A DNA stretch of 64,000 nucleotides from an uncultured Euryhalocaulis sp. (GTDB lineage Bacteria; Pseudomonadota; Alphaproteobacteria; Caulobacterales; Maricaulaceae). Below are positions 250-23,917 of this stretch, in pieces (within the stretch, counting starts at the first letter, position 1; each line of letters opens with the position of its first letter). The translations under genes and the position numbers were made by a program. The notes beneath the pieces were generated by a model, which was not told the DNA's origin, searched no databases, and saw nothing but the letters and a program-made list of their open reading frames with translations. Where the stretch lies: the NCBI GenBank assembly GCA_913055605.1, contig CAJXKJ010000005.1, positions 1-64,000 on the forward strand, written 5' to 3'.

Positions 250-1896
250 ATGACTCCCCTCGAAGCCCTCGTCGCACTCAACATGTTGCCAAGAATCGGT
301 CCCGTGCGGGTGCGGCGCCTGCTGGAGGCCTTCGGCGACGCGGCTGCCGTGCTGGGCGCCCCGACCGACCGCCTGATGCGCATCGACGGCATCGGCGAGG
401 AAACCGCGAAAATCCTCCGCGGCTGGCAGGATCACTCTGATCCTGCGGCGGAAATCCGCGAAGCCACCGAGCGCGGCATCGCCATCGTGACGCAGGACGA
501 CGAAGGCTATCCCGCGCCGCTGCGCGAGGCCTACGACCCGCCGCTATTGCTCTACGTCTGGGGCAAACTGGAAACGCGGGACCGCCACGCGCTGGGAGTC
601 GTCGGCTCGCGCCGGGCGACGGTGTATGGCCGGCAGGCGACGAAGAAGCTTTCCTATCAGCTCGCGCAGGCGGGTTTCACCATCGTTTCCGGGCTCGCGC
701 GCGGGATCGACACCGCGGCGCACGAGGCTGCCATCGCCGCGAGCGGCCGCACCATCGCGGTGATCGGCGGCCGCGTGGCGCCCGCCGGCCCCGCCGCGCC
801 GGCCCTGCCCATGGGCTACGCCCCGCCGCCCGAGGCTGCTGTCTCCGCCTATCCGCCTCCGCCGGAATTTTCGGCCGCCGCCTATGGCCCGCCGCCGGGC
901 ATCACGGGGCCGGAAAGCGGCTTCCCGCCGCCGGACGCCGAATATGTCTACGCCCCGGATTCCTCGCCGCCCCCGCCGCCGGCCTTCGACGGCTATGTCG
1001 CGGTGCAGGGGCAGGGCCAGATGCAGCCGCCGGGAACCTTCGCCTACGCCTATGAAAGCGCGGACGGCGGCGCCTTCGCCTGGCGCTACGACACGCCGAA
1101 CGGCCCGGCCTGGGCCTATGCCTATGAAACGCCGGAGGGCTGGGCCTACGCCTATGCCTACGACACCGCGCCGGAGGGTCCGCCCCCGGCCGCCATCCCG
1201 GTCCCGGCCCCCGAAATCCATCACGAGCATCATGGCGGCCCCTATCGCGGCCCCTATGTGGAATACGCCGAACACGGCCACGCCGGCTTCCACGCCGACC
1301 GCCGCTATACGGACGAGCTCCGCCTCTACGGCGAATCCTATCCGCGCATGCTCTATCTGGTTCAGACCTATTACCGCGAAAGCGAATGGCGCACCGTCTC
1401 GGCCGTGCCGGGCCGCGCCTATATCGGCGCGGCGGGCGGATGCGGCGCCTGCGGCGGCGCGCGCGTTGTCTATCCGGCCGACATGGCCCGCCCGCGCGGC
1501 GTCTTCTATGGCGGCGGCTCTGCTGGCGGGTATGGCGGCGCGATCGGCTTCAACAGGGGCTACGCCTCCGGCGCGGCGCTGACCGGGCGTTTCTCGGGGC
1601 CCCAATCTGGCGATGTCGCCTATGGCGGCGGATATGGCGGCGGCGCGGTCAGCGACAGCGCATCCTTCAACGTCTCCAACACGGCCAGCCAGACCGCGGA
1701 AAACTACGCCATGGCCACGGGCAACCAGACCGTCACCGTCGGGGGCGCCTTCGCCCCGCCTTCCGGCGCCCCGATCCCGCCCTGGGGCCCGCCCGCCCAG
1801 ATCAGCGGCGGAAACACCGCCAACGCCTATGGCCGCGCGAACGCCAACGTCATGTCCAATGGCGCAGCCAACGTGACGGCGGGGCGTCCGTTTTAG
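250..1896 (+). CDS. Chimeric DprA N-terminal half fused to Tyr/Pro/Gly-rich protein
   Basis: Residues 1-174 are DprA (Smf), the loader of RecA on incoming single-stranded DNA. They include a helix-hairpin-helix N-terminus (LPRIGPVRVRRLLEAFG) and the start of the Rossmann-like fold (GVVGSRRATVYGRQATKKL, then IVSGLARGIDTAAHEAA and TIAVIGG). DprA normally continues with a G-x-D-x-x-YP-x-x-N segment and ends near 360 residues. Here residue 175 switches in frame to an unrelated 374-residue sequence. That part is rich in Pro, Tyr, Ala and Gly, with WAYAYAYD-like repeats, a Gly/Tyr-rich centre and a C-terminus of N/T/A-rich motifs (SNTASQTAENYAMATGN). No signal peptide precedes the second part, although its composition looks like a surface protein. 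The nucleotide-binding half of DprA is missing, so DprA function is unlikely. This may be a true deletion fusion or an assembly join. Confidence 0.75.
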   Translation: MTPLEALVALNMLPRIGPVRVRRLLEAFGDAAAVLGAPTDRLMRIDGIGEETAKILRGWQDHSDPAAEIREATERGIAIVTQDDEGYPAPLREAYDPPLLLYVWGKLETRDRHALGVVGSRRATVYGRQATKKLSYQLAQAGFTIVSGLARGIDTAAHEAAIAASGRTIAVIGGRVAPAGPAAPALPMGYAPPPEAAVSAYPPPPEFSAAAYGPPPGITGPESGFPPPDAEYVYAPDSSPPPPPAFDGYVAVQGQGQMQPPGTFAYAYESADGGAFAWRYDTPNGPAWAYAYETPEGWAYAYAYDTAPEGPPPAAIPVPAPEIHHEHHGGPYRGPYVEYAEHGHAGFHADRRYTDELRLYGESYPRMLYLVQTYYRESEWRTVSAVPGRAYIGAAGGCGACGGARVVYPADMARPRGVFYGGGSAGGYGGAIGFNRGYASGAALTGRFSGPQSGDVAYGGGYGGGAVSDSASFNVSNTASQTAENYAMATGNQTVTVGGAFAPPSGAPIPPWGPPAQISGGNTANAYGRANANVMSNGAANVTAGRPF

Positions 1897-2399: not shown

Positions 2400-2834
2400 A
2401 TGGTTCGCCGCCTCGCGCTTCTGCTCGCCTGCCTTCTGACGCCCTTCGCGGCGCAGGGCGAGCGGCTGTCCGGCCCCGTCCCGGCGCAGATCCTGCGCGT
2501 GGTGGATGGCGACACGCTGGAGCTGCGCGTGCGCATCTGGCTGGATCAGGAGCTGATCGTGAAAGCGCGGCTGGCGGATGTGGACGCGCCGGAGCTGTTC
2601 CGCCCGGACTGTCCCGCCGAGCGCGCTTTGGCCGAACGCGCCCGCGACTTCGTCCTGGCCGAGGCCGGGCGCGACGTGACGCTGACATCGGTGGAGCACG
2701 ACAAATACGCCGGCCGCGTCGTCGCCCATGTCGCTGACGACAAGGGCCGCGATCTCTCCGCCCTGCTGCTGTCCGCCGGCCTCGCCGCGCCTTACGGCGA
2801 CAGGACCGGCTGGTGCGCGGACGGGGAGGGCTAG
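2400..2834 (+). CDS. Secreted thermonuclease (SNase) family protein
   Basis: A 144-residue protein with a signal peptide (residues 1-20, ending near FAAQG) followed by a staphylococcal-nuclease-like OB fold. The visible family motifs are VVDGDTLELRV, the ARLADVDAPELF segment carrying the catalytic Arg and metal-binding Asp/Glu, and DKYAGRVVA with the second catalytic Arg. Proteins of this family hydrolyse DNA or RNA with calcium and are exported. The domain is close to the minimal family size. The start codon follows a TATAAT box by six bases, so the message is probably leaderless. The stop codon overlaps the stop of the convergent pyrF gene. Confidence 0.87.
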   Translation: MVRRLALLLACLLTPFAAQGERLSGPVPAQILRVVDGDTLELRVRIWLDQELIVKARLADVDAPELFRPDCPAERALAERARDFVLAEAGRDVTLTSVEHDKYAGRVVAHVADDKGRDLSALLLSAGLAAPYGDRTGWCADGEG

Positions 2835-3523
2835 GCCGGAACGGCCGCCATCTCGTCCGCGATGGCCTTCGCCGCCGCCGCCGGGTCGTCCGCCGCCGTG
2901 ATCGGGCGGCCGACCACCAGATGGCTGGCGCCGGCCTGCAGCGCTTCGGCCGGCGTGGCCGCGCGTTTCTGGTCGTCCATCGCCGCGCCCCTGGGCCGCA
3001 CGCCGGGTGTCACGATCAGGAAGTCCTTGCCGAATTCGGCGCGCAGCATTTCGGCTTCCAGCGGGCTCGCCACCACGCCGTCCATGCCGGCCTCCAGCGC
3101 CTGTCCGCAGCGCCGCTTCACCAGGTCGCGCGCGCCATAGCGCAGGCCGATCGCCTCCAGCATCGCGTCGTCGTACGAGGTCAGCACGGTCACCGCCAGC
3201 AGCTTCAGCCCGCTGTCGCCGCGCCCCCGCACGGCGGCCTTCATCGCCTCCGGCTCCGCATGCACGGTCACCATATGCGCGCCGGTCGCCGCGATGCTGC
3301 GCGTGGCCTTTTCCACCGTCGCGCCGATATCCAGCAGCTTGTAGTCCAGGAACACGCCCTTCTTCTGGGCGCGCAGGCCCTGGGCCAGGTCCATCCCGCC
3401 GACCGGGATCAGCTGCAGCCCGATCTTGTAGAAGCTGACGGCCTCGCCCAGCCCGTCGGCCAGCGTCTGGGCGGCGTGCGGCGTCGGCAGGTCCAGCGCG
3501 ACGATCAGGCGCGGATCGCTCAT
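2831..3523 (-). CDS. pyrF: Orotidine 5'-phosphate decarboxylase
   Basis: The protein has 230 residues and converts OMP to UMP, the last step of de novo pyrimidine synthesis. It opens with DPRLIVALDLPT (substrate-binding Asp). It carries the signature around VFLDYKLLDIGATVEKA, where family members have the catalytic D-x-K-x-x-D array, and ends with VTPGVRPRGA and the phosphate-binding segment SHLVVGRPITAA. The start is the ATG at 3521-3523, which overlaps the stop of the upstream SDR gene in an ATGA arrangement, so the two are translationally coupled. Together with pyrE nearby it forms a pyrimidine cluster on this strand. Its stop overlaps the nuclease stop in a shared CTAG. Confidence 0.95.
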   Translation of the reverse strand: MSDPRLIVALDLPTPHAAQTLADGLGEAVSFYKIGLQLIPVGGMDLAQGLRAQKKGVFLDYKLLDIGATVEKATRSIAATGAHMVTVHAEPEAMKAAVRGRGDSGLKLLAVTVLTSYDDAMLEAIGLRYGARDLVKRRCGQALEAGMDGVVASPLEAEMLRAEFGKDFLIVTPGVRPRGAAMDDQKRAATPAEALQAGASHLVVGRPITAADDPAAAAKAIADEMAAVPA

Positions 3524-21899: not shown

Positions 21900-23015
21900 A
21901 TGAAGCTTTCGATCGAACGCGCCGCCCTCCTGAAGACGCTCGGCCACGTCCAGAACGTGGTCGAGCGCCGCAACACGATCCCGATCCTGGCCAATGTCCT
22001 GCTGTCGGCCGAGGACGGCGGGCTGAAATGCGCCGCCACGGACCTCGATCTGGAAATCACCGAGACCGCGCCGGCCAGCGTTTCCTCGCCAGGGTCCGCG
22101 ACCGCGCCGGCCCACACGCTCTATGAGATCGTGCGCAAGCTGCCCGACGGGGCGGAGGTGGAGATCGCCCTGGCCAGCGGCGACCCGCGGCTGGAGATCA
22201 CCGCCGGCCGCTCCCGCTTCCAGCTGCCCTCGCTGCCGCCCTCCGACTTCCCGGTGCTGAGCGCCGAGGGGCTGGCGCACAGCTTCACCATGTCCGGCGC
22301 GGACCTTGCGCGCCTGATCGACCGCACGCGCTTCGCCATCTCCACCGAAGAGACGCGCTATTATCTGAACGGCATCCATCTGCACGCCCAGGACGGCGAC
22401 GCGAAACTGCTGCGCGCCGTGGCCACCGACGGCCACCGTCTGGCGCTGGCGGAAATGGATCTGCCGGAGGGCGCGGCGGGCATGCCGGCGGTCATCGTGC
22501 CGCGCAAGACGGTGGCGGAGGTCCGCCGCCTGCTCGACGACGCCGAGGACGACGTGAATGTCTCGGTCTCCGACGCCAAGATAAGGTTCGAGGTCGGCGC
22601 CGCCGTCCTCACCTCAAAGCTGATCGACGGGTCCTTCCCGGACTATGAGCGCGTCATCCCGCGCGGCAACGACCGGGAGCTGGTGCTGGACAACAAGGTC
22701 TTCGCCGAGGCCGTGGACCGCGTCGCCACCGTGTCGGTCGAAAAATCGCGCAGCGTGAAACTCTCCATCGGGCAGGACACGCTGACCCTCGTCGCCAACA
22801 ACCCGGAATCGGGTCAGGCGACGGAAGAAATCGGCGTCGATTTCAGCGCCGAGCCGCTCGATATCGGCTTCAACGCCCGATACCTGCTGGACGTCTCGTC
22901 CCAGATCCAGGGCGACGAGGCGACCTTCTGGTTCAACGACACCGCCTCGCCGGCGCTGGTGAAGGACTCCTCGGACGAACACGCCCTCTACGTCCTGATG
23001 CCGCTGCGGGTGTAG
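21900..23015 (+). CDS. dnaN: DNA polymerase III sliding clamp (beta subunit)
   Basis: The clamp (371 residues) forms a ring that tethers the replicative polymerase. Three clamp domains are evident from MKLSIERAALLKTLGHVQNVVERRNTIPILANVLL at the start, the central TRFAISTEETRYYLNGIHLH, and the C-terminal GFNARYLLDVSSQI. It ends with EHALYVLMPLRV, which contributes to the protein-binding groove. It lies about 107 bases after dnaA on the same strand. recF and gyrB, its usual companions, follow only after 7 kb of other genes. Confidence 0.97.
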   Translation: MKLSIERAALLKTLGHVQNVVERRNTIPILANVLLSAEDGGLKCAATDLDLEITETAPASVSSPGSATAPAHTLYEIVRKLPDGAEVEIALASGDPRLEITAGRSRFQLPSLPPSDFPVLSAEGLAHSFTMSGADLARLIDRTRFAISTEETRYYLNGIHLHAQDGDAKLLRAVATDGHRLALAEMDLPEGAAGMPAVIVPRKTVAEVRRLLDDAEDDVNVSVSDAKIRFEVGAAVLTSKLIDGSFPDYERVIPRGNDRELVLDNKVFAEAVDRVATVSVEKSRSVKLSIGQDTLTLVANNPESGQATEEIGVDFSAEPLDIGFNARYLLDVSSQIQGDEATFWFNDTASPALVKDSSDEHALYVLMPLRV

Positions 23016-23167
23016 GTGTCTTTCCCGCCCCGATCGTGACTGTCAGTGCGTGCCGCTTTCCAATCGGAGAGTCAGTTGTCAATATCGCGCTAAAGTTGTC
23101 GACGCCCTTCAATTCCCGTGCTTGGGTACTTTGTTGAACTTTGCCCTACGTGCATCGGGAGGGTCGT

Positions 23168-23917
23168 ATGAAACAGCTGATTGCGGTCTGTGCCGCTGTG
23201 GGGGCGCTGCTTTTTTCCAGTGGCGCGTTTGCCCAGAACCTGACGATCGAAATCAAACGTGCATCCTACAACGCCAATTCGATCACTGGAGAATTGTTCG
23301 TGAATGGAGCTTTTGTCTCCCACACTCTCGAACTGCCTTGGCGGAATAATGAAAGCTACGTGAGTTCAATTCCGGCGGGCGATTATGGGGCGCTGCTAAG
23401 GTATGACAAGAACGACCAATGGCGTCTTCAACTTACGGGCGTGCCAGGGCGGGGTGGCATCCAGATTCATGTCGGTAATTGGCCCAACCAGATCGAAGGC
23501 TGCGTCCTTGTTGGGACTACTGTCAATAACGTGTCCGACGAACTCGAACCCAAGACTAGCGTACCTGCCTATAACAGTCTTAAAACCGCATTCTACGGGA
23601 CACCCAACCCTGTCTCGACACCTGACGTAGATATCATCGTCAGGGTCTCTCACTATCCGCAACGAACAAAATTCACAGGCGGTGGCGTGCAACTCGACTA
23701 CCAAGACAAAGGCCGGTGGTCGATCCGATTTCAAGGACAGACTATTTCCCTGACCGAAGAACGCCGTGACCTCCAACATATCGTTTTGCGCGGCACCGTT
23801 GATGGGGATACGGCCTATATCCGAGTACCTCTGTTTGGTGGGAAGCTAGCGGAATCCGACTCTCCTTCCGGACCGTGGGATTCTTCGGATGCTCCCACAG
23901 TGACCCGGTCGAACTGA
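23168..23917 (+). CDS. Secreted DUF5675 family protein
   Basis: The 249-residue product starts at the ATG at 23168 behind a good GGGAGGG site and has a signal peptide (MKQLIAVCAAVGALLFSSGAFAQ). Residues about 40-115 match the DUF5675 pattern, with LELPWRNNESYVSSIPAGDY and a later GIQIHVGNWPNQIEGCVLVG; the His/Gly-Asn-x-x-x-x-x-x-GC core recalls L,D-transpeptidase-like folds. The C-terminal half has no recognised domain. DUF5675 genes are often found in phage or mobile regions. The gene is markedly richer in A+T than its neighbours and sits between dnaN and the next block, which suggests horizontal acquisition. Confidence 0.75.
   Translation: MKQLIAVCAAVGALLFSSGAFAQNLTIEIKRASYNANSITGELFVNGAFVSHTLELPWRNNESYVSSIPAGDYGALLRYDKNDQWRLQLTGVPGRGGIQIHVGNWPNQIEGCVLVGTTVNNVSDELEPKTSVPAYNSLKTAFYGTPNPVSTPDVDIIVRVSHYPQRTKFTGGGVQLDYQDKGRWSIRFQGQTISLTEERRDLQHIVLRGTVDGDTAYIRVPLFGGKLAESDSPSGPWDSSDAPTVTRSN

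Follow-up and report, generated by a model that had tools for sequence, protein, structure and literature searches.

A dprA fragment joined in frame to a Tyr/Gly-rich protein gene in a Euryhalocaulis sp. assembly: very probably a chimeric contig end

The window, that is, the whole 64,000-nucleotide stretch of DNA that was analyzed, begins at base 1 of its contig (C5; 104,951 bp, in an assembly of 98 contigs). Close to that end it carries a plus-strand open reading frame (ORF) of 548 codons (250-1896), open throughout according to the ORF list and the translation of the window. The frame is made of two parts. Codons 1-173 of a dprA of Akkermansiaceae type (250-768, plus strand), recognized by protein and DNA identity and by a tree, are cut at a junction within 768-781, and the 3′ part of a Tyr/Pro/Gly/Ala-rich protein gene (775-1896, plus strand), lacking a start and signal peptide of its own and attributed to the host from its place opposite pyrF, follows. 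The host pyrF (2834-3523, minus strand), which serves as the synteny anchor, is 71% identical to a pyrF of the same family and 69% identical to one of the same genus. On the other side of the dprA piece, the contig end cuts a minus-strand ORF and leaves its 5′ part (41 codons; 1-123); the encoded protein has a signal-peptide-like start and contains SRTWTSVDGRQMEAEFV. We take this ORF part to resemble an SHD1 domain. It is foreign and probably verrucomicrobial; its match to a single verrucomicrobial locus (L076) is weak (18 residues, 50%), and searching the genome for more verrucomicrobial DNA with the SHD1 family (PF03983) returned no match.

The Pfam profile DNA_processg_A (PF02481) matches residues 74-181 of the ORF (E 8e-34) over profile positions 4-113 of 212 only, and TIGR00732 is covered from positions 5 to 109 of 220 only, with 110.7 bits lying under the cut-off of 191.15. 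The ORF does not contain the complete Rossmann-fold domain across these profiles that would make it a DprA. In an alignment with ten dprA loci of the Akkermansiaceae group, Gly173 (bases 766-768) is the last residue that resembles DprA. At position 174 every one of these loci has Ser and the window has Gly, so Gly174 already lies on the other side of the join; the ten loci then continue with Leu or Met after Ser-Gly and with a Pro-Pro-Glu-Asn stretch, whereas the window reads Gly-Arg-Val-Ala-Pro after Gly173. A preliminary description of this DNA had DprA running to Gly174 and stopping abruptly; the abrupt stop holds, but the last DprA residue is Gly173.

At the DNA level, blastn alignments with close relatives end at 767-769 for most and at 779-781 for three. 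Ungapped identity to five Akkermansiaceae-group loci, scored across the junction in 40-base steps, is 0.85-0.88 over bases 730-769 and only 0.28-0.38 over bases 770-809. The drop is thus at base 770, with the exact base of the junction uncertain because of short chance matches. An octamer repeat had been proposed to lie behind the join. Both copies of GCGGCCGC are present, at 743 and 767, but the octamer is no special repeat: the window holds 26 copies where 23.1 are expected from dinucleotides. Since it is about as common as expected, recombination driven by this repeat gains no support and was rejected.

The origin of the DprA piece was approached by similarity and by phylogeny. In a scan with one genome per species, residues 1-174 reached up to 86% protein identity to Akkermansiaceae DprA; nearly all relatives of the piece were Verrucomicrobiota, the nearest being Akkermansiaceae/Verrucomicrobiaceae. 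DNA identity to Akkermansiaceae is up to 80% over about 520 bases, and identity to the genome's own DprA is only 31%. In a maximum-likelihood tree, 26 DprA proteins of the host order form one side of a branch with 100/100 support and the piece falls outside, among 18 verrucomicrobial rows in the Akkermansiaceae group (99/97). The complete DprA of this genome is paired with the protein of its genus-mate (99/85). The piece does not group with DprA of the host family or order, and by its sequence it is assigned to another phylum, Verrucomicrobiota.

The genome's own dprA, complete and encoding 375 aa, lies on another contig (C22), flanked by a plsY-like gene and topA, and behind a dihydroorotase-like gene (plsY and dihydroorotase were named by eye). 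The 25 relatives searched carry a single dprA each, and the host's single copy is likewise intact away from the contig end described here; no other dprA remnant was found in this genome that would account for the missing 3′ half. Loss of DprA function in this strain, as the preliminary description suggested, is therefore rejected, since an intact dprA stands beside topA and the piece in the window comes, on the tree, from another phylum. No 16S rRNA gene was found in the assembly, and the host was therefore placed by TopA: the ten best matches listed from the plasmid collection all come from alphaproteobacteria, and the host is on this basis judged to be an alphaproteobacterium. Assemblies without 16S rRNA are common among metagenome bins, and the absent gene would fit this genome being such a bin.

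The frame does continue into unrelated Tyr/Pro/Gly-rich sequence, as had been described: the second half (775-1896) has no match in 80 dprA loci from other genomes. A search of 136 further genomes of the host family also gave no close relative, and in the host order it has only weak matches. In the absence of close homologues, its origin is argued from its place beside pyrF, towards which it points in a convergent arrangement, and not from its sequence. A same-genus genome (G001) has a 357-aa Tyr/Gly-rich protein convergent with pyrF, whose start, MLRALLIAGSAGAALFAVPANAQQ, is a signal peptide by eye; over 93 residues it matches the second half weakly (33%, E 0.005). Similar Tyr/Gly-rich ORFs with signal-peptide-like starts (by eye), also convergent with pyrF, occur in G007, G026 and G030, and among the relatives such an ORF opposite pyrF was seen in these four only. 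The composition of the second half (Tyr 8.6%, Gly 15.5%) resembles that of these proteins. At its N-terminus, where a signal peptide would be expected, stands the DprA piece; start and signal peptide are missing because the join removes the 5′ end of the gene. The second half is most simply read as what is left, the 3′ part, of a fast-changing secreted-protein gene of the host.

Some further observations concern the same neighborhood. Four loci of relatives within the host order (L141, L142, L154 and L155) encode quickly diverging Tyr/Gly-rich secreted proteins in the same place opposite pyrF, with sequences that hardly align. Inside the Tyr/Pro-rich protein of the window, 1037-1160 is an imperfect 36-base tandem repeat of 3.4 copies that encodes AYAYETPEG-like units. 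The stretch 1897-2400 has 53% G+C against about 71% in its neighbors and is perhaps a small inserted element; it includes a 108-aa minus-strand ORF (1959-2285) with a membrane-type N-terminus.

As window and contig share base 1, the DprA piece lies within the outermost ~774 bases of C5, and the foreign DNA extends to the very end of the contig. These bases show no sign of a mobile element. Composition does not discriminate: bases 1-770 have a GC content of 67%, neither GC nor tetranucleotides are unusual for the window, and their tetranucleotide divergence of 0.100 compares with an average of 0.107 across the window. Tetranucleotide usage in the window is most unusual at 23141-23917 (770-bp chunk at 23101). 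This region codes for a 258-aa protein whose start looks like a signal peptide, and a gene named by eye as DNA polymerase beta-clamp-like (21900-23015) lies just upstream of it.

Several explanations can be put forward for the fused frame. Real and recent horizontal transfer, in which Akkermansiaceae DNA carrying the beginning of dprA recombined into the host chromosome in place of the start of the Tyr-rich gene and left either an expressed fusion or a pseudogene, would account for a frame that is open across the join on a contig that, as given, is continuous. We consider it improbable. The foreign DNA coincides exactly with the ~774 bases at the contig end, has no host sequence flanking it on the outer side and shows no sign of a mobile element, the arrangement occurs in no relative, and the assembly would have to have broken by chance within 800 bases of the join. 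A hybrid gene formed by recent cross-phylum recombination, with the start of an Akkermansiaceae dprA placed before a truncated secreted-protein gene, is accordingly just as doubtful.

The open frame is also all that speaks for a functional two-domain protein in which the N-terminal half of DprA and a Tyr/Pro/Gly-rich domain might together have a role in DNA uptake. With the Rossmann fold cut mid-way (profile position 113 of 212), halves that belong to different phyla, and the fusion seen in none of the 80 dprA loci and none of the 25 host relatives, this is hardly credible. Equally little weight can be given to a decayed second copy of the native dprA: two dprA matches do occur in one genome, but the piece shares only 31% identity with the native product and is refuted as a native copy by its place in the tree, outside the host-order clade at 100/100.

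A chimeric contig end explains all of these observations: two phyla meet at the end of a contig, the host's own dprA is complete, and the join is absent in relatives. The ORF is thus very probably an artificial in-frame join, produced by misassembly or by a chimeric library molecule, which the preliminary description had offered as its alternative and which the foreign-phylum DprA piece at the contig end and the complete dprA elsewhere now favor. Bases 1 to about 770 would come from a member of the Akkermansiaceae, presumably in the same sample or sequencing run, and from about base 770 on the contig would be that of the alphaproteobacterial host. The join would fall inside two coding sequences that happen to share a frame, for which the chance is about one in three, and the second half would be left over from an ordinary Tyr/Gly-rich secreted protein that lost its signal peptide at the join. 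We infer that the join arose during library preparation or assembly rather than in the cell. On the other hand, cross-lineage misassemblies in metagenome-assembled genomes (MAGs) have been described as relatively rare (GUNC paper, PMC8201837), and this rarity and the unremarkable composition of bases 1-770 both point against such an origin.

As a biological feature, the fusion gene is most likely not real but an artefact. The proposed gain of a cytoplasmic version of a surface-type protein is not supported, the second half being best read as a cut host gene. The chimeric ORF provides no evidence on loss of transformation in this organism. Its meaning is one of caution only: a foreign contig end of 774 bases, not betrayed by composition, yields a fusion protein that looks plausible and might find its way into databases as 'DprA'.

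Compared with known systems, residues 1-173 share up to 86% identity with intact Akkermansiaceae DprA proteins of 365 aa (PF02481, TIGR00732), but the Rossmann fold lacks its second half and there is no C-terminal domain. The second half of the ORF is like the secreted Tyr/Gly-rich proteins of relatives in its pyrF-convergent position, on the same side, and in composition; it differs from them in lacking a signal peptide and own start, and in that about 500 bp and a nuclease-like gene separate it from pyrF. As in the chimeric contigs of the GUNC paper (PMC8201837), fragments of two lineages stand on one contig, but here only about 774 bases are foreign, an amount that methods counting genes per lineage would be unlikely to notice.
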